Source of the DNA: Vibrio azureus
Lineage (GTDB): Bacteria > Pseudomonadota > Gammaproteobacteria > Enterobacterales > Vibrionaceae
NCBI RefSeq assembly: GCF_002849855.1
Contig: NZ_CP018616.1
Span: 1,736,001 to 1,800,000 of the forward strand
Reading direction: 5' to 3'
DNA: 64,000 bases
Shown: positions 5,204-20,448 of the stretch, one piece after another
Layout: every line of letters starts with the position of its first letter
Numbering within the stretch: position 1 is the stretch's first letter
Position numbers and translations under genes: made by a program
Notes under the pieces: model-generated
The model's database searches: none
The model's input: only the letters and a program-made list of their open reading frames with translations
What the model was told of the DNA's origin: nothing

Positions 5204-6535
5204 ATGTTAACGAAATCAATCAGCTGGCTACTGGCCTTAAGTCTCATTGCCTTTACCAGCATCGCGGACACCTATGTTTATTTAACCAATAACTCGGATC
5301 AGCCATTAACTCTCCAAGTCGCACATGACGGGACCGACAGGCTCAAATACGGTGAGCAATGGCAACAATACGAGGAAAAAATCGGACCTTGGGAAACGAA
5401 AAAAGTGTTAGGTTTCAATCGTTGGGTCGGAGTGAAATCCAACCAAACCTATCGTTTTCACACCGTAATCTCAAACTCGCGCGGTGAAAGTACCACTCTA
5501 AGGCAGGTCATGCGAGGCTATTGGTACAATTCAGCAATTGAGTTTGGTGTGAGCGCAGCAGATGTCGAATCCTCACTGAAAAGCGACAGAGAAATTCATC
5601 GTTCTGAAACGCAATCATTTGGTGATCTTGCCACTGAATTGGCTTTTAAATCCTCTTCAACCGTGATGTACGACGACTTGCATTACACCATTACGCCTGC
5701 ATACCCGACAGATCCAGTCGACAATAACGAGCAACATTTAAAAGTATTGAGTTACAACATCTGGGCCTTGCCTGCCATAGCCGCTGACATAAGCCAACGC
5801 CTCGAAATCATTCCAGAATATGTCCATGGTTACGACGTGATCGCTTTTCAGGAAGTCTTTGCATCGGGTAGACAGGCATTTTTACAAACCTTAGCGCGTG
5901 AATACCCTTATCAGACTGAAATACTCAGTAATGGCAGCTATAACATCCATGATGGTGGCGTCGTGATAGTTAGCCGCCACCCGATCGTTAATGAGGCACA
6001 GTTTGTTTTTCCTGAATGTAGCGGCAGTGATTGTTTCGCTGACAAAGGGGTTGTCTACGCTGAAGTCATCAAAGATGGTCTGGCTTATCATGTTTTCGCT
6101 ACCCATACTGCCTCTCACGACACAGACCAAGCCCGTCATAACCGTCAGTTACAGTTCAAACATATCCGTGCACTGGCGACATCGCTAGAGATTCCAAGCT
6201 ATGAACCGGTCATTTACAGTGGCGACTTCAATGTGAATAAACGTAAATTCCCTGATGACTACCAACAAATGTTAGCTAATTTGAATGCAGCAGAACCACA
6301 ATATTCAGGTTATATCGATTCCACTTTCGACCCGAGGATTAATAGCTATGCAGGACAAGCACTCACCGGTAGCGAAAATGTCGAATATTTAGACTATGTT
6401 TTCGTCAGTAATGAATATGGGCAGCGCTCATATAACAATAATCGTGTTGATGTCCCTCGAACAACCGATCAAAGACTCTGGCAACAATACAATTTATCCG
6501 ACCACTTTCCTGTCAGTGCAGAGATAAGACCATGA
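5204..6535 (+). CDS. Secreted sphingomyelinase C-type phosphodiesterase
   Basis: Predicted to hydrolyse sphingomyelin (or related phospholipids) to ceramide and phosphocholine outside the cell. The signal peptide ends near residue 21 (TSIA-DTYV). Residues about 22-165 form an extra beta-rich domain. The endonuclease/exonuclease/phosphatase fold follows: LSYNIWA (Asn about 185), FQEVF (metal-binding Glu about 216), FATHTAS, SGDFNVN (Asp-Asn about 340), LDYVFVS and C-terminal SDHFPV (catalytic His about 433). All expected acid/base and metal positions are present. The stop overlaps the start of the next gene by four bases (ATGA), indicating translational coupling with a foldase-like protein. 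Haemolytic activity is plausible but inferred. Confidence 0.87.
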   Translation: MLTKSISWLLALSLIAFTSIADTYVYLTNNSDQPLTLQVAHDGTDRLKYGEQWQQYEEKIGPWETKKVLGFNRWVGVKSNQTYRFHTVISNSRGESTTLRQVMRGYWYNSAIEFGVSAADVESSLKSDREIHRSETQSFGDLATELAFKSSSTVMYDDLHYTITPAYPTDPVDNNEQHLKVLSYNIWALPAIAADISQRLEIIPEYVHGYDVIAFQEVFASGRQAFLQTLAREYPYQTEILSNGSYNIHDGGVVIVSRHPIVNEAQFVFPECSGSDCFADKGVVYAEVIKDGLAYHVFATHTASHDTDQARHNRQLQFKHIRALATSLEIPSYEPVIYSGDFNVNKRKFPDDYQQMLANLNAAEPQYSGYIDSTFDPRINSYAGQALTGSENVEYLDYVFVSNEYGQRSYNNNRVDVPRTTDQRLWQQYNLSDHFPVSAEIRP

Positions 6536-7503
6536 AACGATTCCTATATCTCGGTGGTTTCACTGTTGTCGTTGGTCTCATCCTTCTGCATAACCAGCCC
6601 AAAGCCATCGAGGAAAATAGACAAGCTAGGTCCGCATTACAATTTTCTGCAACACAGCAGGTAGAGCAATCACAGCCTGAAAGCACAGTAAAACCTGGTA
6701 AGAAGGTGGCCACTTATCAGACAAAAACTGAAATGAACGCCTCTGATACACACTCTCCTCGCGGTCTTGTTGAGCAGCTTGGTAACAGTTCTGGTCGAAG
6801 CTTGATTGTGGCAATCAAACTTTTTTGGCAAACATGTCAAACAAATTATGATTGTATTCAGCAATTAGAAGGCCTAAAAAGTCATTTATCTTCAGAGCGC
6901 TGGGCATTATTAGCGAATTACTTCGAGACCAATCAAACTTGGCAACAGCAATTGAGCAACTTAGTCTTTAATCAGCACCAGTCCCTTTCATCGCGTGTTT
7001 TAGAGCTTAAACGTAAAGCAAATGAAGTATGGGGAAACTCGGCTAACATTCTTTTTGCTGATGAATTCGTACTGTACGATTTCAGTTTACAAGCAGAGAA
7101 ACTTAGGGACGTAAGTGCACAAAACTACCTACCAATGTTTAACCACTTAATGCAAACCTGGAAGAATGAAGAACATATTCTAGGTCTCAACACGCCACAA
7201 GCGAAATATGAAAAAGCCATATCCTTAATCTCATCACAGGTCAGTCCCAATGAGCGAAAAAGTCTTATTCAATCGCTACAAAATCGGTATTTGAACAAAA
7301 CGCAAATATCACAAATCAAACAACGTCAGCAACAAGTATTTGAGCAACAGAAAGAAATCGATGAATATCAATCTCGGTTAGAGGAATTTAAACACCAGCT
7401 AGAGCAAGAGTATAGAGCTCAGCCTTACTCAGAAAAACAAAATTGGGAGGTATATTATCAACAAAGAATAGAGGACTTCCGGCGTCGCTTTTTCGAGATA
7501 TAA
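6532..7503 (+). CDS. Lipase-foldase (Lif/LifO) family membrane-anchored chaperone
   Basis: Lif proteins are steric chaperones, tethered to the periplasmic face of the inner membrane, that fold secreted lipases before type II secretion. This 323-residue protein has the right plan: one N-terminal membrane anchor (about residues 5-20), a variable linker, then an all-helical body. SPRGL (about 75) resembles the S-x-RGT motif. FADEFVLYDFSLQAEKL (about 180-196) matches the family's F-x-ADE-x-x-Y-x-x-F-x-L block, and the C-terminal Gln/Glu-rich helices match the Lif lipase-wrapping helices. The canonical FDYFLSAxGE helix is replaced by IKLFWQTC. It overlaps the sphingomyelinase gene by four bases, so the likely client is that enzyme and not a lipase. 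The client assignment is inferred. Confidence 0.68.
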   Translation: MKRFLYLGGFTVVVGLILLHNQPKAIEENRQARSALQFSATQQVEQSQPESTVKPGKKVATYQTKTEMNASDTHSPRGLVEQLGNSSGRSLIVAIKLFWQTCQTNYDCIQQLEGLKSHLSSERWALLANYFETNQTWQQQLSNLVFNQHQSLSSRVLELKRKANEVWGNSANILFADEFVLYDFSLQAEKLRDVSAQNYLPMFNHLMQTWKNEEHILGLNTPQAKYEKAISLISSQVSPNERKSLIQSLQNRYLNKTQISQIKQRQQQVFEQQKEIDEYQSRLEEFKHQLEQEYRAQPYSEKQNWEVYYQQRIEDFRRRFFEI

Positions 7504-8881: not shown

Positions 8882-10006
8882 ATGGGAAATTTTAAAATAA
8901 CTATCTTAAGTGCATTATCTATAAGCATGATCTCTTACCCTGCTCTTTCTGCAATAAACGAATCTTATGATGTATTATCATTGGAACTGTCCGCCGACCA
9001 TAATGAAGGTAATGGTGTGCCGATGCCTTTTTTTGCCAATGGCAGAATGCAATCTAAGTTAAATATTTCTGCTTCTTTTGGTGACCAATATGGTTCTCCT
9101 GTCAATGTAAGTACTGATGAGCTAAAGGCATCCATATCTTTCTATTTAAAAGGCGATGGTAGACTTTTAACTCAGGATAGAGACTGTACATTCGGCATCA
9201 ATTGCTGGGGTTTTACATATACACCAAATGAGTACGCACACCAAATGGGGGCATCCTCTGGCTACGGTAGAACATTACCACATTCACGAATCGGTTCACC
9301 GAACACAACAAAGCTCACTGCTTGGGTCTACACAAATGAAATTGCTCAGTTTAGACAAGTATGTGCACAAATAAAATTTGACGGTGGCAAAGTATACGAC
9401 AGCTGCCAACACCCACAAAATGAATCCGCGATTTATCAATCGGTTGAACCAAAAGTATACAATATCACTGAGTTTGCAGACATTGGAATGGGTGAAGAAG
9501 TTTGGAAAGAAACTAATTATGATGACTTCTATTTTTACCCTGCGGTAATACGAAACTTCTATATCACCCCAATGGACACTTCTGTCAAACTGGTCAATGT
9601 TTCAGTGGACAATGATGATGAAGCTCAACGAGACCAATTGTTCCTAAATGATACTTGGCTGGGTTGTCTCCCCCCTTGTGATGATGCATTCCGCTCTGTA
9701 AAAGGCTATATCTTTAAGCCAGGCTCTGAACGTACAGTGTCCGATCAATATGTTTTCAACAGCGCTGCGGGTGAAGGAAGAACCGCAACTTGGCGAGTAA
9801 ACCAAAAGTTGCGCTCACTAACGATAAGCCAGTTGTTGTATTCAAACATCAGTTCAAATACTGAGGAGAAACAACAAGAATACCGATTCACTGCTTTCGA
9901 CCAATACGGTAATAAAGCACCACTTAAAATTGTTTATCCTTTGAGTTCTCATAACGGTGGCGGTCAGAAATGGGATTACACCAAGTGGTTCCTAGCTGCT
10001 CAATAA
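8882..10006 (+). CDS. Secreted protein of unknown function upstream of the Rhs gene
   Basis: A 374-residue product with a Sec signal peptide (about residues 1-23, ending ALS-AINES). The mature region is rich in Tyr, Asn and Asp, beta-type in composition, and has cysteines clustered as CTFGINC and LGCLPPC, suggesting extracellular disulfides. I do not recognise a family. A 361-base gap with a repeat copy separates it from the Rhs gene, so co-transcription is uncertain, but both lie in the same low-GC accessory stretch. It could be a secreted partner of the Rhs pair or an unrelated orphan. The ribosome-binding site is weak. Confidence 0.7.
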   Translation: MGNFKITILSALSISMISYPALSAINESYDVLSLELSADHNEGNGVPMPFFANGRMQSKLNISASFGDQYGSPVNVSTDELKASISFYLKGDGRLLTQDRDCTFGINCWGFTYTPNEYAHQMGASSGYGRTLPHSRIGSPNTTKLTAWVYTNEIAQFRQVCAQIKFDGGKVYDSCQHPQNESAIYQSVEPKVYNITEFADIGMGEEVWKETNYDDFYFYPAVIRNFYITPMDTSVKLVNVSVDNDDEAQRDQLFLNDTWLGCLPPCDDAFRSVKGYIFKPGSERTVSDQYVFNSAAGEGRTATWRVNQKLRSLTISQLLYSNISSNTEEKQQEYRFTAFDQYGNKAPLKIVYPLSSHNGGGQKWDYTKWFLAAQ

Positions 10007-10367: not shown

Positions 10368-13300
10368 ATGTCAAATTGGATATCAAATGCATTTAACTTC
10401 GATACCTTTTGCTCTGGTGGTGTCGATCAAAGAACAAGAAGTTTCTCCTATCAAATATCCTTTGGTTCATTGGTTGGTAACTGGCTTAAAGGCCCTAACC
10501 TAGATATTTCACTGCTGTTTTCACCTTTCTCCAATGAGAATTTAGGTTTTGGTAAAGGCTGGAGATTAAACTTACCAAGATACGATATAACCAATAAACA
10601 ACTTTATTTAGCCAATGGCCAATCATATCGTGCTGAGCACTCCGCGAATAATAAAATCGTCCTTCGCTACAAGAAGCTAAATGACTTCTCTGTCTCTGTA
10701 GAGTCCAACGGTTATTTAATCACTTATAAAAACGGCCGACAGGATCGCTTCAACCAATATGGAAACTTGGTAAAAATTACTCAGAGCGATGGCCATGCGT
10801 TGCATTTTTATTGGTTAAGTTCAGGCCAAAATCAATATTTAAGTAAGATCTGGGATGATAGGACATCAAGAAACACGCCTCTTCTTCATATTGATTACGT
10901 CAGTGCAGGTCGTGTTAACGTTTTTACCAATGTTGATAGTACGCACGCGGCTTATTTTAGTCTGATCATCAATAATGGAAAATTAGTTCAGTATAACTTA
11001 GCCGATAGAAATGGCTCTTTTGGCTTTGGTTATGAGCAACTTGGATTGCATAACGTTATTTCCCGGGTGACTCATCCATGTGGAATGGAAGAGCGGTTGA
11101 CTCATGACAGTCGTGGTATAAAAGTCACCAATACAACCTACTTGCCAGCGGTCACCTTACATCGTGTGATCACGCGCAATTCTCCTATCATTTCGACCAA
11201 TTACGGGCCAATAGGAACCGATACTCGCAACTTTATGGGCTTCGGTGTCGCTGGGGGCCAATTGAGTGAGGGGCTGGATAACTTGCTCGAACGTGGTTAC
11301 GAATATACCTATCGCGTGCAAAAGACAGAGAATGATGGCACTCGAACGATACAAACCTATAATCAATTTCACCTATTAGTGGAAGAAGCTAGGATTGTTA
11401 ACAACAAAGTCGTTTATCAAAGAACGCTCAGCTACCCTGCTCAAAACAACCTTTCTTTTTCTGCACAACCCGCTCAATACGCACTCATTCATACTGAAAC
11501 AAATAGGTGGCAAGATGGCGCAGACAGCCACAGTCAGCAAAGAGTTTGGGAATACGATACTTTTGGTAACTTACTCTCTTTTTCTGATGAAAATAATATC
11601 AAAGAAAGTTACGAGTATTATTCTGCGAGTGGCGAAATAGGCTGTCCCGCTTCGCCGTCAGGTATACCTCATTTTCTAAAAAGCAGACGTTTACAAAGTC
11701 GCTCAGAAACCAAAACCATCAGTTATGAATACATGACATTTAATGGCTGGAACAATCACAAGGTTGTCTTACTGAGTGCAGAACTTTCCCCTTCTCGTTA
11801 TCAGACAAACTACGATTACCATGATAATCACACTACCTCTCACTCATTGGGTCGTGTTAAATCCATCAAGCATAACCTCTTTGATGCAACGGGAACCTAT
11901 ATCAGAACCTCAACTTATGACTATGCCTTAGAGCGAGACACTCTGGCCGAACACGAACAACTCATTAATCATGACGGAACTCAAACTCACTTAACGCTTG
12001 CACACTTCTTAGATATTGGTCTGTTGGCTTATCAAGTTGATTCCGATGGTGTTCGTTGCTCATACACTTACGATGCTCTACGTCGTAATACACAAGAAAC
12101 CCTTGATGATAAGCTTTCGCGTTCTTATCAGTACTCTTTCGACAGCGCTAGAGCACGTCAGATCATGGTGTTAACTGACTGTAATGGCAATATCAGCGAA
12201 CAAAGTTGGGATGGCCAAGGCAGAGAACTTGAAGCGAAATTAGGCACTAATACGGTTTGGACTAAACAATACGATAACCTAGGTCGTCTGTTAAGTAAGA
12301 CCAGCTTCGACCAACTGCCAGATAAAAATCGCAGATTAATGACGGTAGCCCAAACAGAGACTTATGAATATGACCAATGGAACCAAGTCGAAGCGATTTT
12401 ATTGCCTAATGGCAAACGTCGAGTTGAATCGAATAATCTCGCCACACAACAAAAAATTCAGGGCATAGAAGGGCTAGAACTTTCAATTAGCCACCTGAAT
12501 AGCTGGGGGCTTGTAGAAAAAAAACAACAAGGTGAACATACTTGGGTTAACCAATATGATGACTGGGGCCGCCTAGAAACAGAAACCAACCCACTTAATC
12601 AGTCTAAACACTATCAATATGACCGATTTGATCGTGCCACTAAGATCACTCAGACCGATGGTTCCATACACGATATTACTTATGCACCTCATACTGATCA
12701 GACTCAAGTCATTGAGCTGAAGATCGATAATAAGGTGATCGGAAAACGTGATATTGATGGTTTAGGTCGCGCACAAAACCTCTACCGAGGATCAAGCTCA
12801 ACCCCGTCTTTGGAGTGGACTTACAATGATAGCAGTAACCTCCCCGCGACAGAACGCAGTCTAGCTGGTCCTGTGAGGGAGTTTACTCGAGATACCAAAC
12901 TTGGCGTTCTGGGAGCAAAAGAATCTGGAAGTGATATTACCCTTTATGAACACGATCCAAATACGGGATTACCGACTGGAAGTCGCGATAGCAAGGGCAA
13001 TAAAACAACGCTCAGTTACACCACAACCGGTTTGCCAGAATTTGAAAATAACAATGGTCAAATTCGCCAATATCATTACTCCTATGGTGGGGTTATCACG
13101 GCGGTGACAAGCGATAACGAAAACCGCCAATTTAGCTACGACTCTTTGGGTCGACTGGTTCAAATAAGCACCCCTGACAACAAAATTGAGTTTGAATATG
13201 ATGAGTTTGCTCGAGTAAACCTCGAACGACTCGTGACGAACAATGCTACCCAGATTACCGAGATCGAGTGGGATGCAAGAAACCATGAAGTTCATCGTGC

Positions 13301-14057
13301 TGTTGCATTAAATGATGTGTACATCTTTGAACAAACGCAAGACTATGACTCTCTCGGGCTCCTTCGATCGCGTAAAAAAGCGTGTTCCGAATTTGGCGAT
13401 CTGACTGAAACCTATCACTATGATGCGCAGGCACAGTTGAAAAAAGTTGAGTTTTCGGGTAACGCCCCACTGAGTGACTGGTCACAACCGATTAAATCGC
13501 TAGAGTGGACATATGACTCGCTTGGCAACATGCTTACGCAACATTGTATTGCAGTCAATGGCAATGACTTTGCTCAATACTACTATGAGTCAGAAGACCC
13601 GAGTCAGCTTACTCGAATTACCCATACTCACCCACAATTGCAACGTGAAATCACGCTTCGCTATGACCTAAATGGCAACATGCTTAGGGACGCAGAAGGT
13701 CGAGAGCTTAGCTACGATAACTTCGACAAGCTGAACAGTGTCACCGCAGATCAAGTCCAATGGCACTATCGATATGACAGTAATGATCGCTTAATAGAGC
13801 AAAGATCCGATACTAAAAGCCGCCACTTCGAATATTTATGGGGTGATATTTCAGCAATACAAGAAGATGGCCAAATAACACAATATATCTCCCATGAAGG
13901 TGCGCCAAAATGGTCACAGCAAGGTGAGAACACATCATTATTAGCCACTGATCAAAATGGTTCTGTGATTGCCTCCAATCAATCTGATGGAACCCATACC
14001 ATGTACCGTTACTCTCCATTTGGTCAACGTGAACAAGCAGGAAAGACATATGAATAA
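10368..14057 (+). CDS. Rhs/YD-repeat protein lacking its C-terminal core
   Basis: A 1229-residue RHS-repeat protein of the kind that builds a beta-cocoon around a C-terminal toxin. The N-terminus (GGVDQRTRSFSYQISFGSL, then SPFSNENLGFGKGW) is typical of non-PAAR, TccC-like Rhs proteins. Many YD motifs follow (YEYDTFGN, YDALRR, YDNLGRLLSK, YDSLGRLVQI, YDLNGN). It has no signal peptide, PAAR domain or VgrG domain. It stops right after MYRYSPFGQREQAGKTYE, whereas Rhs proteins normally continue into the conserved GxxGEWLDP...GYR core and DPxG boundary. Those elements are present in the next gene, which starts inside the last codons (8-base overlap) in the +1 frame. A clear ribosome-binding site, AAAGGA, precedes the ATG. 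Confidence 0.9.
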   Translation: MSNWISNAFNFDTFCSGGVDQRTRSFSYQISFGSLVGNWLKGPNLDISLLFSPFSNENLGFGKGWRLNLPRYDITNKQLYLANGQSYRAEHSANNKIVLRYKKLNDFSVSVESNGYLITYKNGRQDRFNQYGNLVKITQSDGHALHFYWLSSGQNQYLSKIWDDRTSRNTPLLHIDYVSAGRVNVFTNVDSTHAAYFSLIINNGKLVQYNLADRNGSFGFGYEQLGLHNVISRVTHPCGMEERLTHDSRGIKVTNTTYLPAVTLHRVITRNSPIISTNYGPIGTDTRNFMGFGVAGGQLSEGLDNLLERGYEYTYRVQKTENDGTRTIQTYNQFHLLVEEARIVNNKVVYQRTLSYPAQNNLSFSAQPAQYALIHTETNRWQDGADSHSQQRVWEYDTFGNLLSFSDENNIKESYEYYSASGEIGCPASPSGIPHFLKSRRLQSRSETKTISYEYMTFNGWNNHKVVLLSAELSPSRYQTNYDYHDNHTTSHSLGRVKSIKHNLFDATGTYIRTSTYDYALERDTLAEHEQLINHDGTQTHLTLAHFLDIGLLAYQVDSDGVRCSYTYDALRRNTQETLDDKLSRSYQYSFDSARARQIMVLTDCNGNISEQSWDGQGRELEAKLGTNTVWTKQYDNLGRLLSKTSFDQLPDKNRRLMTVAQTETYEYDQWNQVEAILLPNGKRRVESNNLATQQKIQGIEGLELSISHLNSWGLVEKKQQGEHTWVNQYDDWGRLETETNPLNQSKHYQYDRFDRATKITQTDGSIHDITYAPHTDQTQVIELKIDNKVIGKRDIDGLGRAQNLYRGSSSTPSLEWTYNDSSNLPATERSLAGPVREFTRDTKLGVLGAKESGSDITLYEHDPNTGLPTGSRDSKGNKTTLSYTTTGLPEFENNNGQIRQYHYSYGGVITAVTSDNENRQFSYDSLGRLVQISTPDNKIEFEYDEFARVNLERLVTNNATQITEIEWDARNHEVHRAVALNDVYIFEQTQDYDSLGLLRSRKKACSEFGDLTETYHYDAQAQLKKVEFSGNAPLSDWSQPIKSLEWTYDSLGNMLTQHCIAVNGNDFAQYYYESEDPSQLTRITHTHPQLQREITLRYDLNGNMLRDAEGRELSYDNFDKLNSVTADQVQWHYRYDSNDRLIEQRSDTKSRHFEYLWGDISAIQEDGQITQYISHEGAPKWSQQGENTSLLATDQNGSVIASNQSDGTHTMYRYSPFGQREQAGKTYE

Positions 14058-15195
14058 TAAAGATTCTGTATTCATCAAACCTCTCAATCGACGCGAGTTT
14101 TTGATTAAAATTGGTCAAACTACAGCCGTGGCTGGCGGTGTCTCCCTGCTGCCGACTTCAGTGCGTTTAGCCATGGCTCAATCCATGACTAGCCTAAACA
14201 CACAACTCGGTTTTAATGGAGAATGGCTCGATCCAATCCTAAATGGTTACCACTTAGGTCAAGGGTATCGCGTCTATCAGCCAAGTCTTATGCGCTTTAA
14301 TGCCCCAGATAGCCTAGCGCCGTTTGGTGAAGGTGTTCATAACGCTTATGCCTATTGCCACAATGATCCGATCAATTTCACCGATCCCAGTGGACACCTC
14401 GACATCAAAAAAATAATATTTGGTGTGTTCGGTGTGATTACAGGCATTATTGGCATTGCCCTAGCGGCCCCATCAGGTGGTTCAAGTATGCTGCTGGCTG
14501 CTGGTATCATTAGCGGTGTTGCCGGGATAGCAGGTAGCTCACTTCAAATCGCTTCGGGTGCCATTGATGATGGCAAGATATCACGTCAACTCGATATGGC
14601 TACCGTAGCATTTGATGTCCTTGGTGTGATCAGTAGCGGTTACTCTGCTTACAAATCGATACAGAATATACGCTGGGTTCGGGCTGGCGGGGCGCTTGAA
14701 GATGTCACACAGCCAGGTCTTGCTAGCCAACTCATTAAAAAGCTAAAGCCTTCTAACGAGTACAACCTACAATGGGCTCAAAAGACCAATCCAGCCATGC
14801 GACTTGGGCGTAGCGAAGGGAATGTTATTGCAACTAAAATCACTCAAGGTGGTAAAACGTTAACCTATACCCCGCCTCCCATACATGGGGGATATACCAA
14901 AATCTTATTAGGTCAAGTAAAAGTCGGGCCGAGAGGCTTTACTATTTACAAGAGCATTACCACTGCACAGTCGATCGCTGGCCTTATCTCAAAAACTGTG
15001 TCTACCATTCCTGGAAGGTTTGCAAATAAAGCCGCGATTACCGTTGCAGGTGATACAGCGGAAGCAGTGACTGAAGGACGAAATATAAACCCTATTGCGA
15101 TGAAAACCCAAATGGCGTCATTGGAGGAAACTCGTCAAAGAATAAAACTCTGTCAAGAAGCCCAGCAAAGAGTAAGGCAACTGCCTCTGTCTTAA
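14050..15195 (+). CDS. Tat-signal protein carrying the missing Rhs core and a C-terminal effector-like region
   Basis: A 381-residue product starting at an ATG that overlaps the end of the Rhs gene (ATGAATAA), with CAGGAAAGACAT as ribosome-binding site. Residues 1-43 form a twin-arginine signal: NRREFLIK, an apolar stretch (TTAVAGGVSLLP) and AMA before the likely cleavage site. Residues about 52-116 are the canonical Rhs core C-terminus (LGFNGEWLDP, LGQGYRVYQPSLMRF, NAYAYCHNDPINFTDPSGH), including the P-x4-DPxG boundary linked to autocleavage. Next come two Gly/Ala-rich hydrophobic segments (about 122-160) and about 200 residues I cannot assign to a toxin family. No immunity-type gene follows on this strand. 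Export by Tat is inferred. Confidence 0.85.
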   Translation: MNNKDSVFIKPLNRREFLIKIGQTTAVAGGVSLLPTSVRLAMAQSMTSLNTQLGFNGEWLDPILNGYHLGQGYRVYQPSLMRFNAPDSLAPFGEGVHNAYAYCHNDPINFTDPSGHLDIKKIIFGVFGVITGIIGIALAAPSGGSSMLLAAGIISGVAGIAGSSLQIASGAIDDGKISRQLDMATVAFDVLGVISSGYSAYKSIQNIRWVRAGGALEDVTQPGLASQLIKKLKPSNEYNLQWAQKTNPAMRLGRSEGNVIATKITQGGKTLTYTPPPIHGGYTKILLGQVKVGPRGFTIYKSITTAQSIAGLISKTVSTIPGRFANKAAITVAGDTAEAVTEGRNINPIAMKTQMASLEETRQRIKLCQEAQQRVRQLPLS

Positions 15196-15351: not shown

Positions 15352-18300
15352 CTAATCGTTGTTACATTCTGGTGCTGGTGCCTGCCCAGCAATAGGTAAA
15401 TCAGAATTTTGTGAAGCACTGCCTGCTATGAAGCTTGTTGGTTTACTTGTTAGGTTAATCCAATTCCAGCAAGTAAGATCTTGGTCAAATTGGTTTGCGT
15501 AAAAAAACATGTATGACAATTCATTTTTAAATTCTGGCTTTACTTTCCAATTACCTATGTCTTGATTAAAAGCTAATGAACTTTGGAACATAGATGTCAT
15601 ATCTTTTACATTCGAGACATCCCAAGAAGAAATATCTTGATTGAAGAATTTCATATTCATAAACATACTGCTCATATTTTCCACACTTCCTGTATTCCAA
15701 CTATTCAAAGGCTGAGCAAAATTTGAGGCATGATTAAATGTACTATTCATGTTTACCACATTATCTGTGCTCCAATTATCTAACGGCTGATTAAAAATAA
15801 AAGCATCATGAAAAACATCAGCAAAACTTGTAACTTGTGCGGTAATCCAATTATTAATAGGTTGATTAAATGAGTGAGCTCTATTAAATATACCTGATAT
15901 CATTAACGTTTGTTCAGGACTCAACGACATACCAGGGACAACATTACCATTCCAAAGAGGTTTGCCGGCATTATTAAAACTTTCAGCCCCATAGAACATA
16001 TTTGACATATTTGTTACACGACTCATATCCCAGTTACTGATATCCTGATTGAAACTTCTCGCATTACTAAACATACCAGACGTATCGATTAGGTTGGAAC
16101 TTGGTCCTTTGTCATCATTCCACAAGGGTATACCCCCATTATTAAAACCTTGCGCACCACTGAACATATCTTTCATCGTAGTGACATTGGAAACATCCCA
16201 GTTACTTAAATTACGATTGAAACCTGTATCATTCGGTTTATCAGAAGTATTAGTAAACATGCCTTCCATCGACGTGACATTTGAGACATCCCATGACTCA
16301 ATGCCTTTGTTATTAAACTGTTTATTTCCCCTAAACATATGAGACATGTTCGTTACATTATGTGTCACCCAACCAGACACATCACCATTGAAAAAATCTG
16401 GATTGGAATTGAATTTTACTAGTTGCTCTTCATCATAATATTCTCGATTAAACAAGTTACTCATATCTGTCACACATGTCGTATCAATTTTAATTTGATC
16501 ATTTACCAACCAATTTATAATTAATGGATGGTGAATCGTCGTATTCGTTACCGCCCACACCTCTTGCCCGGGTGGATAGGCTGGTACTGGGCTATCTACA
16601 GTCCAACTTTGATCAACTTTGATCAGTTGATTACCAGACTCAACGCAAACTGGATTTGAGTTAAGTGCTACTTCAAGATTAAAACGGCAAAAATCAAGAA
16701 GCGGAGTGGTCTTAAACGTCCCCTCATTTTCAGACAAGTCACTTAATGGGGCTGATTCAATCCCACAAGACGCTTCATTGTAATAACTAATCGACGAAAA
16801 TTCATAACCGGGAGCGACTTTAACAGTAAATTCCACTTGGCTACCTTTCACAATCTCAGCGTTATTACCGCTAGCACTTGTCACCTCTGAACCGTTAAAA
16901 ATCTTGGTAATATTCATCTCTCCATGACCACCGCTATTGAAATGGACATCGTAAATTTTTTCAAATAGCACCGAGATTTGGCATGACTCATAAATATCAT
17001 CGGTTATGTAGTCGGTCGCATTCTTGGGGTTAAAATCATTCGACATCACAGACACACTGCACGTGTCACCCGTAACTGATTTTATCCGGCTAAACATCGT
17101 TGTTGGATTCACATTGAAAGTAACCGCTTCTCCTGCATTAGGGTAAACAAAGCTTTTCGAGACTGTACCTTTTACTTCTCCAGCGACATTGATTCTGACA
17201 CCGATAATATCCTCAGGCTCTTGTATCGCACTGTCGAAAGTGCCAAAACCCACATTCACTTCACAGTCGTCCTGCAGGTTGTTTATCGCATAGGTTGTCG
17301 CTGTGGTGATATCCCCATCATCACCTTCGGCAGGCTCTGCCTTACAGGTTTCATTTCCTAAATGCACCGGAACGCTTTCAACACTGTCAATACGTTGCCC
17401 TGCTAGTGGCGTCACGGTAAATTCAATGTCTGAGCCTTTTTCTGCGTAAAAATGGTTCGGGTTAATGCTGCCACCACTGTTGGCGTTAAAACTCACTTTG
17501 ACATGCTCGACCGTGTTAATCGGGTCATTGTCTGTCATCTGAAAAAAGGTCACCTTGATGCCACAATTGCCCGACACATTGCGTACCATGTATTCCGTTG
17601 ACTGGGTAGGAATATCATCATCACCTGATGCAACAACAGGTTGGCATTTCCATCCACCTAAACTTACCAGTGTGCTTTCGACTTTCCCAATACGATAATT
17701 CGGCTCAGGACTCACGGTAAATGACACATCATTGCCTTGTTTAACATGAAAGTTTTGCGTCGAGGCTGTGCCTCCTTCACCTGGGTTAATGATCACATCG
17801 TACATCGGTATCAGAGAAGCATTATCTTTTTCAGTAAAAGAGACACTCATCGAGCAATTCTGTTCAACAGGGTCGATGATAAACGTTCGTAGCTCTCCCT
17901 CTTGGCTCTCCATGGTGGCGGTACAGTTTCCTTCCAAGGCCTCAAATCGGTACCCCTCATTTGGGATTGCCGTAAATTTAACTGGCTCGCCTTGTAAAAC
18001 GTACTTGCTCAGTGGATCAACGCTGCCCTCCCCAGTTACACTCGCTTCAAAATGGTAAATGGGTGTCAGTCCAACATTACTTTTCTTAATAAAACTCACA
18101 TTCATTTCACAGTTTTTATTTAACGGACCAATACTATATTTTCGCTTGTCTTCATCAACGGCAATAAAGTCTACTAGACAATCACCGGAAACGCTGTCCA
18201 ACCGAAAACCATCATCTGGAATAGCGTCAAAATTAACGAACGCTCCTGCGAGTTCAGTCTGCATACTTGGTGTTACCTCACCGTCACCTTGGGCATTAAC

Positions 18301-19980
18301 AGTCACTTCATACTCAGGAATGAGAGCAAGGTTATCTTGTTCTGCAAAACCGACATCAAAGGTGCAGTTTTTAACCATCGGGCCAACTTCAAAGACATAA
18401 GTATCGCCATTTTTATTTTCTAACCTCTTGTTACATGTGCCTTCGAAAGTCGTGACTTTGCTTCCAACCCCAGGGGTGATATAAAGATTCAACAGCAAAC
18501 CTTCTAACTGTTCTTGGAAAGCAGGCTGAACTTGTCCATTCCCCCCAATAAGGTTGGTTTCAAGGCGATAAATAGGCACAAGCGCTGCGTTGTCTTTTTC
18601 GATAAAGCGAGCGTGAAGTGAGCAGTTCTTATCAAAAGGCCCAATAGTAAAGGTACGATTATCACCGCTGCTACTCTCTAAAGCAGATAAACAGTTGCCT
18701 TCCAAGGCATCAAAACGATAACCGTCGTTGGGTGTTACGGTAAACGAAGCGCGCTTACCGGCTAACACTTCTTGAAAGAACGGAGAGACACTGCCATTTT
18801 CTGAAGCAGTCACAGAAAGCTCATAAACAGCAAGAAATTCACTGTTTGCCTTGCCAGTAAAAGAAACGTCAATCTCACAATCTTTGACTAAGGGGCCAAC
18901 ACTGAAGGTTTTATTATCCTCATCTTCGGCGGTTAAAGCTGCAAAGCAATCGCCTTTGATGGTTTCAAAACGGTAATTTTCACTGGGTGTGGCAGTGAAA
19001 GTAGCAAATTCTCCTTCAAGGTAGGCTTCCTGTTGTATGGAGACTTGACCATTACCCATGGCATTAAGATTCACGGTGTAGGTAGGTACAAAACCAGAAA
19101 AGTTCTTATTGGAAAAATGCGCTTCAATCTCACAATCTTTACTCAAGGGGCCGACACTGAACGTGTGAGTGTCACCGTCGGTTTCTGTCAGGGCAGAGAA
19201 ACAATCGCCAGTAAGTGATGACAATTTGTAATTATCTTCGGGGGTAATGGTAAAGGTGACTTTTTCACCTTCGATTTGCTGTTGAATATGAGGCCGTGCT
19301 TGCCCTTCTCCATGCGCCTTAACCACCACATCATAAACCGGGAGTGAAGCGGCGTTGAGTTTTTCTGCAAACGTAACGTCAAAATCACAATCTTGTTGAA
19401 GAGGGCCCACACTGAAGGTTTTTATGTCACCTGTCTCACTGGTTACATCCGCAAAACAATTGCCATTTAGAGCATCGAACAGATACCCCTCTTCTGGCGT
19501 CACAGTGAATTCAACAACTTGGTCTTGCAGATAATCACTAAAATAGCTCGGTGATGCCGACCCTCCCTCAGAAGCACTGACATGCACATCGTATGTCGGT
19601 GTCGTCAAAGCAAACTCTTTGGGACCAAACCCCACTTGAACTTGGCAATCTCTCGTCAACGGCCCAACAGTAAAGGTATGCTCGTCATCGCTGTCTTTGA
19701 CCGCTTTCAGGCCACAATCACCGCCAACCACTTCCAGTTTGTGACCATCATCTGGGATCGCAATAAATTCGACAAGGCTGCCTTCTTGCATACCGGAAAA
19801 AGATTCTGGGGTCACAACCCCTGCACCCTGTGCTACGACAGTGACATCATAAAGCAGTGTCAATTTAGTCTGAGAATCATCTTCTGAGTTACTGAATATC
19901 CCACCGTCTTTACAACCCGCTGTGGAGTAAGCGAATAAAACAACAAAGCATAAAGATGAGAGTCGACGAATTCTATCCAT
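15352..19980 (-). CDS. Giant surface lipoprotein: 12 cysteine-paired beta repeats plus BspA-type leucine-rich repeats
   Basis: A 1542-residue lipoprotein. I start it at 19980 because MDRIRRLSSLCFVVLFAYST is followed by the lipobox Cys (TAGC) and AAGGAAGGGAAT lies just upstream. About twelve ~80-residue repeats follow (YDVTVVAQGAGVVTP, YDVHVSASEGGSASP, YEVTVNAQGDGEVTP and others), resembling InlB-type B-repeats. Most carry one Cys near G-x-C and another in PLxxxC, implying one disulfide per repeat. The C-terminal third has about eleven BspA/DUF285 repeats (SWDVSNVTSMEGMF, NWDVSNVTTMKDMF, QDISNWDMSRVTNM). The architecture suggests a long stalk with a binding tip at the outer surface, perhaps for adhesion. 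Ligand unknown. It is transcribed toward the Rhs pair. Confidence 0.85.
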   Translation of the reverse strand: MDRIRRLSSLCFVVLFAYSTAGCKDGGIFSNSEDDSQTKLTLLYDVTVVAQGAGVVTPESFSGMQEGSLVEFIAIPDDGHKLEVVGGDCGLKAVKDSDDEHTFTVGPLTRDCQVQVGFGPKEFALTTPTYDVHVSASEGGSASPSYFSDYLQDQVVEFTVTPEEGYLFDALNGNCFADVTSETGDIKTFSVGPLQQDCDFDVTFAEKLNAASLPVYDVVVKAHGEGQARPHIQQQIEGEKVTFTITPEDNYKLSSLTGDCFSALTETDGDTHTFSVGPLSKDCEIEAHFSNKNFSGFVPTYTVNLNAMGNGQVSIQQEAYLEGEFATFTATPSENYRFETIKGDCFAALTAEDEDNKTFSVGPLVKDCEIDVSFTGKANSEFLAVYELSVTASENGSVSPFFQEVLAGKRASFTVTPNDGYRFDALEGNCLSALESSSGDNRTFTIGPFDKNCSLHARFIEKDNAALVPIYRLETNLIGGNGQVQPAFQEQLEGLLLNLYITPGVGSKVTTFEGTCNKRLENKNGDTYVFEVGPMVKNCTFDVGFAEQDNLALIPEYEVTVNAQGDGEVTPSMQTELAGAFVNFDAIPDDGFRLDSVSGDCLVDFIAVDEDKRKYSIGPLNKNCEMNVSFIKKSNVGLTPIYHFEASVTGEGSVDPLSKYVLQGEPVKFTAIPNEGYRFEALEGNCTATMESQEGELRTFIIDPVEQNCSMSVSFTEKDNASLIPMYDVIINPGEGGTASTQNFHVKQGNDVSFTVSPEPNYRIGKVESTLVSLGGWKCQPVVASGDDDIPTQSTEYMVRNVSGNCGIKVTFFQMTDNDPINTVEHVKVSFNANSGGSINPNHFYAEKGSDIEFTVTPLAGQRIDSVESVPVHLGNETCKAEPAEGDDGDITTATTYAINNLQDDCEVNVGFGTFDSAIQEPEDIIGVRINVAGEVKGTVSKSFVYPNAGEAVTFNVNPTTMFSRIKSVTGDTCSVSVMSNDFNPKNATDYITDDIYESCQISVLFEKIYDVHFNSGGHGEMNITKIFNGSEVTSASGNNAEIVKGSQVEFTVKVAPGYEFSSISYYNEASCGIESAPLSDLSENEGTFKTTPLLDFCRFNLEVALNSNPVCVESGNQLIKVDQSWTVDSPVPAYPPGQEVWAVTNTTIHHPLIINWLVNDQIKIDTTCVTDMSNLFNREYYDEEQLVKFNSNPDFFNGDVSGWVTHNVTNMSHMFRGNKQFNNKGIESWDVSNVTSMEGMFTNTSDKPNDTGFNRNLSNWDVSNVTTMKDMFSGAQGFNNGGIPLWNDDKGPSSNLIDTSGMFSNARSFNQDISNWDMSRVTNMSNMFYGAESFNNAGKPLWNGNVVPGMSLSPEQTLMISGIFNRAHSFNQPINNWITAQVTSFADVFHDAFIFNQPLDNWSTDNVVNMNSTFNHASNFAQPLNSWNTGSVENMSSMFMNMKFFNQDISSWDVSNVKDMTSMFQSSLAFNQDIGNWKVKPEFKNELSYMFFYANQFDQDLTCWNWINLTSKPTSFIAGSASQNSDLPIAGQAPAPECNND

Positions 19981-20448
19981 ATTCCCTTCCTTTGATGGCT
20001 CAAAATGTACATTCAACGAGCCAAAAATTAACAAATTTATCACTTATAAAATAATAGAACACTAATGTTATTTTTGTTATCTGTAGTAAGAGAGCTATGA
20101 AATTTAGACAGAGTCTCGATTGAGCAAGATCAACAGAGGTAAAAGACACGATGAAGCACACCTCTATACCCAAGTGATCTTGCTCTGAATAAAGCATTTT
20201 GAAGTCAGTTTGTTATATGTGATGCATCAGAAAAAGTAGGTGGTACAAGCAAAAGAGAGACAGGGGATGAGGAACCAATGATTTGAGGAATCAAATGAAG
20301 ATGTGTAGTAAATATTAGTGCTATTTTTAGCCGCAGGAATGAGTTGAGAACAAGAGAGAACGAGACCAACTGAAAACAGAGACAAACTCAGGAGAGTGTA
20401 AACCACCTAAAAACGGTGGTTCCACCCAATGCATAGCAATAGAAAGCT
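19981..20448. other. Intergenic region upstream of the giant lipoprotein
   Basis: This 468-base gap contains the lipoprotein's ribosome-binding site and presumably its promoter, a repeat-family copy (20165-20206) and a small hairpin (20400-20420, AACCACC-TAAAAAC-GGTGGTT) downstream of the Fis-like gene. No convincing coding sequence. Confidence 0.5.
20165..20206. repeat. Intergenic repeat, copy 5
   Basis: Starts TATACCCAAGTGATCTTG and ends with the inverted half AAGCATTTTGAAGTCA. The copy is diverged. Confidence 0.55.

Follow-up and report, generated by a model that had tools for sequence, protein, structure and literature searches.

A split Rhs toxin of Vibrio azureus, with a Tat-type signal on its effector piece, points to a possible unrecognised exit route from the cell

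Toxins of the Rhs/YD-repeat class are recognized by a repeat shell, or cocoon, to which a core end and a variable C-terminus are covalently joined. In the B-C cocoon of Tc toxins (TcdB/TccC type) the shell consists of two chains, the C chain ends in the effector after this same core signature, and the break between the chains lies mid-cocoon. We describe here a three-gene system found on a 64,000-nucleotide stretch of Vibrio azureus (contig NZ_CP018616.1, positions 1,736,001 to 1,800,000; hereafter the window). Gene B encodes the cocoon, gene C separately encodes the core end and the effector behind an N-terminus of the twin-arginine translocation (Tat) type, and gene A encodes an immunoglobulin (Ig)-like protein with a signal peptide of the general secretion (Sec) type. 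The system differs from Tc toxins in that the break falls at the very end of the core and C is a protein of 381 amino acids with a Tat-type signal, in that B shows only RHS_repeat in Pfam, with no SpvB or TcdB-mid domains, and in that partner A is small and Ig-like and not a giant TcA. The TcA_TcB_BD domain (PF18276) had no match in the genome, but the control genomes were equally silent. Rhs effectors of type VI secretion systems (RhsP, Tse5, TseI) also combine a YD-repeat cocoon with a core end, and gene B weakly matches solved structures of Rhs effectors in the PDB; these, however, are single chains that cut themselves after synthesis, whereas two genes are involved here, and the Pfam scan found no PAAR domain in the window's B. 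Bacterial teneurin-like proteins are YD-shell toxins too, with TAT/SPI among their predicted signals, but in the accessible part of that study they are single chains, with no split that places a signal on the effector piece (PMC13018210). Finally, one-piece Rhs proteins with an adjacent A (L115, L122, L135-L146, L156-L162; the loci compared are cited by number) bring together the same B, core and A families, but in these B and C are fused, there is no Tat part and A has no signal. No name for this one-piece system was found in the libraries used, which give a generic RHS annotation.

The genes of the window, and the parts of gene C, are the following:
8882..10006, + strand: gene A, a 374-amino-acid all-beta Ig-like protein with a Sec-like signal peptide (family motifs, structure model, signal score)
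10368..14057, + strand: gene B, a 1229-amino-acid Rhs/YD-repeat cocoon lacking both a signal peptide and the C-terminal end of the core (repeat-family matches)
14039..14045, + strand: AGGAAAG, the likely ribosome-binding site of gene C, lying within gene B (judged by inspection of the sequence)
14050..15195, + strand: gene C, 381 amino acids, Tat-type signal plus Rhs core end plus effector, with an 8-nucleotide overlap with B
14050..14178, + strand: Tat-type signal, gene C residues 1-43 (NRREFLIK, apolar stretch, AMA), proposed from the twin-arginine and strict-pattern counts in the family
14209..14397, + strand: Rhs-associated core end, gene C residues 54-116, GFNGE to DPSGH (TIGR03696; fused relatives)
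14398..15192, + strand: variable effector part, gene C residues 117-381, starting with glycine-rich apolar segments

The open reading frame (ORF) of gene B ends in YSPFGQREQAGKTYE just before its stop codon, 10 residues past YSPFG; it matches PF05593 RHS_repeat (9.8e-29), with two weak Pfam matches besides, and TIGR01643 (9.6e-20). Gene C opens with an ATG in a different frame, and its product begins with MNNKDSVFIKPLNRREFLIKIGQTTAVAGGVSLLPTSVRLAMAQ. After the signal comes the Rhs core end, recognizable by GFNGEWLDP, GYRVYQPSLMRF and DPINFTDPSGH and matched by TIGR03696 (Rhs_assc_core, residues 48-116, 2.6e-18), i.e. the segment that is covalently joined to the cocoon in one-piece relatives. 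By its repeat shell, and by a core end followed by a variable C-terminus (TIGR03696 matches 21 of 21 members), the system belongs to the Rhs/YD-repeat class, but its core end, encoded by a separate gene, is not covalently continuous with the shell. The effector part of the window's gene C had no family match in the Pfam scan. Effector parts vary widely among members: one of 21 carries PF15656 Tox-HDC, one PF11713 Peptidase_C80, and 7 match a glycine-zipper model.

A split of this kind might result from a frameshift error, from decay into a pseudogene or from programmed frameshifting of a one-piece Rhs, and one-piece relatives do exist; for this locus we find such an origin hardly conceivable. 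A protein search with the 381-residue product, as proposed in an earlier note on this DNA, gave 59 matches, 46 of which (query included) are full-length stand-alone proteins of 374-381 amino acids with 58-100% identity, the named sources including Vibrio, Photobacterium and Aeromonas. When 21 of these matches are aligned, residues N13, R14, R15 and A43 show no variation. Among 329 Vibrionaceae genomes, 31 match gene C at an E-value of 1e-20, and 15, the window's own genome included, hold full-length orthologues of at least 71% identity. In eight orthologous loci (L037-L044) the cocoon ORF measures 1229-1236 amino acids and ends at the same motif, and the start of gene C falls within its last codons. 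Between the window and the L037 orthologue, non-synonymous and synonymous divergence (dN and dS) are 0.101 and 1.59 over the whole of gene C, and 0.05 and 0.87 over residues 1-46; judged from these values, gene C is under purifying selection. Gene order alone already contradicts frameshifting. Among 33 same-strand Tat-type loci with A, B and C, 24 have the order A-B-C, in some cases with A or C present in additional copies, and 4 have B-C-A, but C precedes B in four (A-C-B; L059, L061, L062, L074) and follows A in one (B-A-C; L063), i.e. in 5 of the 33 it does not come directly after the cocoon gene. At a further locus, L130, gene A is on the opposite strand. From these comparisons gene C is a real, independent and conserved gene and no accident of the window. 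The earlier note, whose coordinates prove correct, had taken the core end and effector to form a separate overlapping gene with its own start and ribosome-binding site, and had discounted a frameshift error. ORFs, full-length homologues and gene order agree with the former, and the conserved homologues, the conserved arginines, the selection and the gene orders outside B-C uphold the latter.

Two arrangements deserve mention in their own right. On another contig of the same genome (L059:1824-8982) there is a second, divergent system in the order A-C-B, whose A protein has a StcE-type beta-sandwich domain (PF20944, 7.9e-30). At L126:6529-9010, two tandem C genes, identical over at least their first 45 residues, follow one cocoon gene, which by its gene content is one container with two effectors.

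The distribution of the split form was followed with a profile of 119 positions (A5) covering the Tat part and the core. In Vibrionaceae it found 56 matches, in 31 of the 329 genomes. The Tat part is included in 52 of them, in frames of 132-573 amino acids; the other four are fused frames of 1195-1688 amino acids, and one of these (L116) aligns from position 11, yet the sequence concerned is mid-chain cocoon. In an order-level sample 13 of 394 genomes matched, with Tat-split cases in two further families; in a class-level sample there was one match in 369 genomes, the window's own; in a phylum-level sample 5 of 299 matched, those outside the order without a Tat part. The profile search of proteins reported 1242 matches, with Psychromonas, Moritella, Shewanella, Aeromonas and Algicola among the sources of the 120 listed.

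The earlier note had described the N-terminus of gene C as a textbook twin-arginine signal, and by its sequence features the description fits. In the window the twin-arginine motif, a moderately apolar core and an AxA site are all present, and of 21 highly diverged family members all but one retain the arginine pair. For a set of 132 family proteins (the gene C protein-search matches and the 120 listed profile matches), a strict Tat pattern within the first 75 residues was passed by 94, belonging to 30 signal types less than 50% identical to each other; a Tat-like pattern within the first 60 residues occurs in only 3 of 376 other ORFs of at least 150 amino acids from the fetched loci. The 38 failures are mostly partial proteins and pieces that retain cocoon strand ahead of the core, and include four near misses (P0068, P0101, P0102, P0111). 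The curated TAT models, at relaxed E-values, match some members (TIGR01409 7 of 21, PF10518 3 of 21). By simple hydrophobicity rules made for this analysis, the apolar core of gene C signals is weaker than that of gene A signals (median 1.53, n=31, versus 2.15, n=35; p 8e-8), as expected for Tat versus Sec, apolar cores being weaker in Tat than in Sec signals. Single copies do decay: one protein from Vibrio cholerae (P0085) has lost the arginine pair while keeping an otherwise similar N-terminus, and one copy of gene C among the 329 Vibrionaceae genomes (L022) is interrupted.

The third gene, overlooked in the earlier note, which had proposed a two-component Rhs, adjoins B or C in the loci compared; what stands of that proposal is the separate conserved effector gene with its Tat-type signal. 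The A family is defined by the motifs (Y/F)xNGxMQ and DxYGN, present in 21 members, and the model of the window's A (predicted local distance difference test, pLDDT, 81.3) suggests that its first domain is Ig-like; in L176, A is annotated 'Ig-like domain-containing protein'. By a simple signal-peptide rule, all 36 A genes that accompany Tat-split pairs (33 loci) have a Sec-like signal, and none of the 28 that accompany fused Rhs genes (26 loci) has one, leaving out A genes with an open 5′ end and the A matches of L128 and L130, which have no nearby same-strand B. Three cases were settled by inspection: L172, scored Tat by the script from a motif inside a cocoon strand, was re-read as having neither Tat nor a signal on A; A of L173, which has no Tat, scores as a signal only from its longest ORF and gives none from the start aligned with its relatives; and the second A of L141, with an apolar stretch in the longest ORF that no charge precedes, was scored as having no signal. 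Three plasmid records from outside this set agree, L175 being Tat-split with a signal on A when the start is placed as in relatives (the annotated start is internal and removes it), L176 and L177 being fused without signal.

The A protein could be an immunity protein following its effector's compartment, as it adjoins B or C and switches compartment with C, but we think this very improbable. A is one family with fixed motifs, whereas the effectors differ; domains of the StcE or NlpC/P60 type occur in some A proteins; and across 28 split systems, of which two lack Tat, A distances track B distances (Spearman 0.68) far more closely than effector distances (0.25). Such a role would concern A only, and is compatible with the account of B and C favoured below. 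The same comparison (58 systems reduced to 51, L131-L133 dropping out because the core pattern failed) shows B and effector distances loosely related in the 28 split systems (0.25) and tightly in 23 fused ones (0.68), and split effectors seem to be exchanged more freely. Among fused systems, the A protein of L158:6992-8758 has a C-terminal NlpC/P60 domain, and those of L159:6466-9855 and L160:6469-9873 reach 1130-1135 amino acids, with long N-terminal regions without an assigned family.

The position of the break is equally regular. Scoring was possible for 34 of the 36 cocoon tails of Tat type, and each ends 0-11 residues after Y-x-P/A-Y/F-G, while in fused proteins (n=39) 9-23 residues, median 13, separate this motif from the core. 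Among the tails of split systems, which with the three non-Tat pairs also number 39, the five without the motif are those of L061 (cut by the fetched stretch), of L130 and of the non-Tat split pairs L172-L174. As read from these tails, the usual Rhs chain is broken within the linker between Y-x-P-Y-G and GFNGE, and with so fixed a break point B plus a signal-less C would match a one-piece Rhs nicked in one linker. A different arrangement is seen at L171:3677-16105, where six tandem stand-alone Rhs core-plus-end modules, without Tat, each retain the pre-core cocoon strand.

Sixty stretches of fused relatives and other groups were fetched. Fused B-C relatives are present in 64 of 129 sampled genomes of one genus (Pseudomonas, at a guess), in 18 of 129 of one family in the window's order (enteric, at a guess) and in a few Vibrionaceae (L115, L118). 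Uninterrupted Rhs homologues without a Tat segment, which the earlier note would have counted against its reading, thus exist, but only in another clade: in a tree of 51 non-redundant B sequences all 26 Tat-split ones lie on one side of a single branch (SH-aLRT 94). On this tree, the signals on C and A changed together on one branch and were kept over deep divergence. The weight of the signal table lies in this persistence and in the fused systems inside Vibrionaceae, not in the count. Among 76 B or fused chains only 3 gave a signal-like score, in all three from a segment within the first cocoon strands; by this scoring the cocoon genes are without a convincing signal.

From what the sequences hold, i.e. 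separate conserved genes, a break at one fixed place, a signal on each of A and C, and the way these signals are present or absent together, the best reading is that the system has been re-routed to the periplasm, the effector via Tat and the partner via Sec, and most likely the cocoon, having no signal of its own, rides with the effector. We favour, as rather probable, a three-gene Rhs/Tc-type toxin made of a cocoon (B), a Tat-signal core end with effector (C) and a Sec-signal Ig-like protein (A). C would dock onto B in the cytoplasm and the effector would be enclosed, which would render it harmless to its maker and provide Tat with a folded cargo; being only a cocoon end, the C core should depend on B for its folding. 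Complexes that are already folded can pass through Tat together with partners that have no signal, as in hitchhiker complexes (e.g. hydrogenases), where one signal carries a folded complex, and B would be the hitchhiker, a piggyback passage that the earlier note had also raised as a possibility. Signal peptidase would then cleave near AMA-Q, leaving a one-piece-like Rhs with one nick; A, possibly the part that binds, would join once this has reached the periplasm, and the complex would exit the cell, perhaps through the type II secretion system (T2SS). TatC and a T2SS component (T2SSC) are encoded in the genome. Known hitchhiker complexes are enzymes, whereas the cargo here would be a toxin, which to our knowledge would be new. 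That there is a Tat export route dedicated to cocoon toxins, with the closed, loaded cocoon hitchhiking and the Ig-like binding part going via Sec, we regard as an even bet. The target may, as a guess, be eukaryotic, because in the loci compared no other gene family recurs beside gene C, where an immunity gene would be expected. There is a precedent in an Rhs effector that was still cleaved when sent to the periplasm by an added Tat signal (PMC7170923, in its accessible part).

Several points weigh against this account. Because a single branch separates the two forms, the 36 and 28 A genes are not independent and amount to one switch rather than 64 cases, and the tree itself was made by a quick method and has several long branches. 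For A of L141 and of L173, an apolar stretch precedes the start used by relatives if the longest ORF is taken. A main doubt is size, as B plus C, at an estimated 180 kDa or so, is large for Tat, and the structure model of the gene C product alone is poor (pLDDT 46.9). The window's own gene C protein matches neither TIGR01409 nor PF10518, and a clear [AVS]xA site, present in 26 of 36 signals, is missing in 10. Both facts would suit an N-terminus of C that is an anchor or a structural element and not an export signal; we judge this improbable, as RR-x-F/L is kept across divergence, the Sec-like signal of A co-occurs with the Tat-like N-terminus, and stand-alone C-type modules of other bacteria (L045, L134, L166-L168, L170-L174) have no such N-terminus. 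Lastly, four gene C copies (L064-L066, L125) have no nearby B, so that C may at times travel without a B encoded next to it. Together with the lack of a signal on B, they could be explained if C were exported via Tat and A separately via Sec, B leaving by some other way (lysis, vesicles or an unknown route), with assembly outside the cytoplasm; release by lysis is known for a Tc toxin (PMC10847048, in its accessible part). We consider separate export unlikely, though worth weighing: the C core, a cocoon end only, would have to fold for Tat without B, and a lysis route would not require signals on A and C.

Elsewhere in the window, region 5204-7503 holds a sphingomyelinase-like gene (its TIGR03395 score of 165 bits does not reach the cut-off of 248), which overlaps by 4 nucleotides a gene for a helical-looking protein of 323 amino acids without family match. 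Downstream, at 15352-20043 (- strand), lies a gene for a 1563-amino-acid surface protein with PARCEL repeats (TIGR02167), with, by eye, many similar repeats in its N-terminal part; among the clustered loci compared, only L037 has it in the same place.

Our literature search, which covered few subscription papers and preprints, gave no description of a split Rhs or Tc toxin with Tat on the effector piece. On a conjugative plasmid of Vibrio parahaemolyticus (L175:1-13131) the three genes follow genes with an SpvB/TcaC N-terminal domain and RHS repeats, an IS256-like transposase lying between this Tc pair and the three-gene system. Tc genes equal in length to the ones that adjoin the system there are discussed in a study of a shrimp Vibrio, whose accessible part does not mention the split pair (PMC12668620). 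In the accessible parts of two further papers, Tat occurs only in a reference title (PMC8765631) and Rhs only in the references (PMC4899797). According to a survey of Tc toxins, as far as its text was accessible, the EnteroBase collection for Vibrio contains no TcC protein (PMC7861908).

How Rhs/Tc cocoons get past the inner membrane when no injection machine serves them has yet to be explained. For Photorhabdus, Yang and Waterfield proposed, in the accessible part of their paper, that the N-terminus of the C subunit carries B and C across the inner membrane, and left the export mechanism open (PMC3789776). In the present system the corresponding end of C is a Tat-type signal on a small separate protein, and with the fused, signal-less clade as a natural control the question can be put to a direct test. 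One toxin family is without Tat signals, which has been explained, in what is accessible of that work, by folding of the toxin in the cytoplasm (PMC12691689). If the favoured account is true, an effector shut in its cocoon escapes the argument against toxins as Tat cargo, namely that folding ahead of export would make them poisonous to the producing cell, and the three genes would make a secreted three-part toxin. As far as can be judged from sequence, this split Rhs toxin points to an unrecognised exit route from the cell for a large toxin class in marine bacteria.
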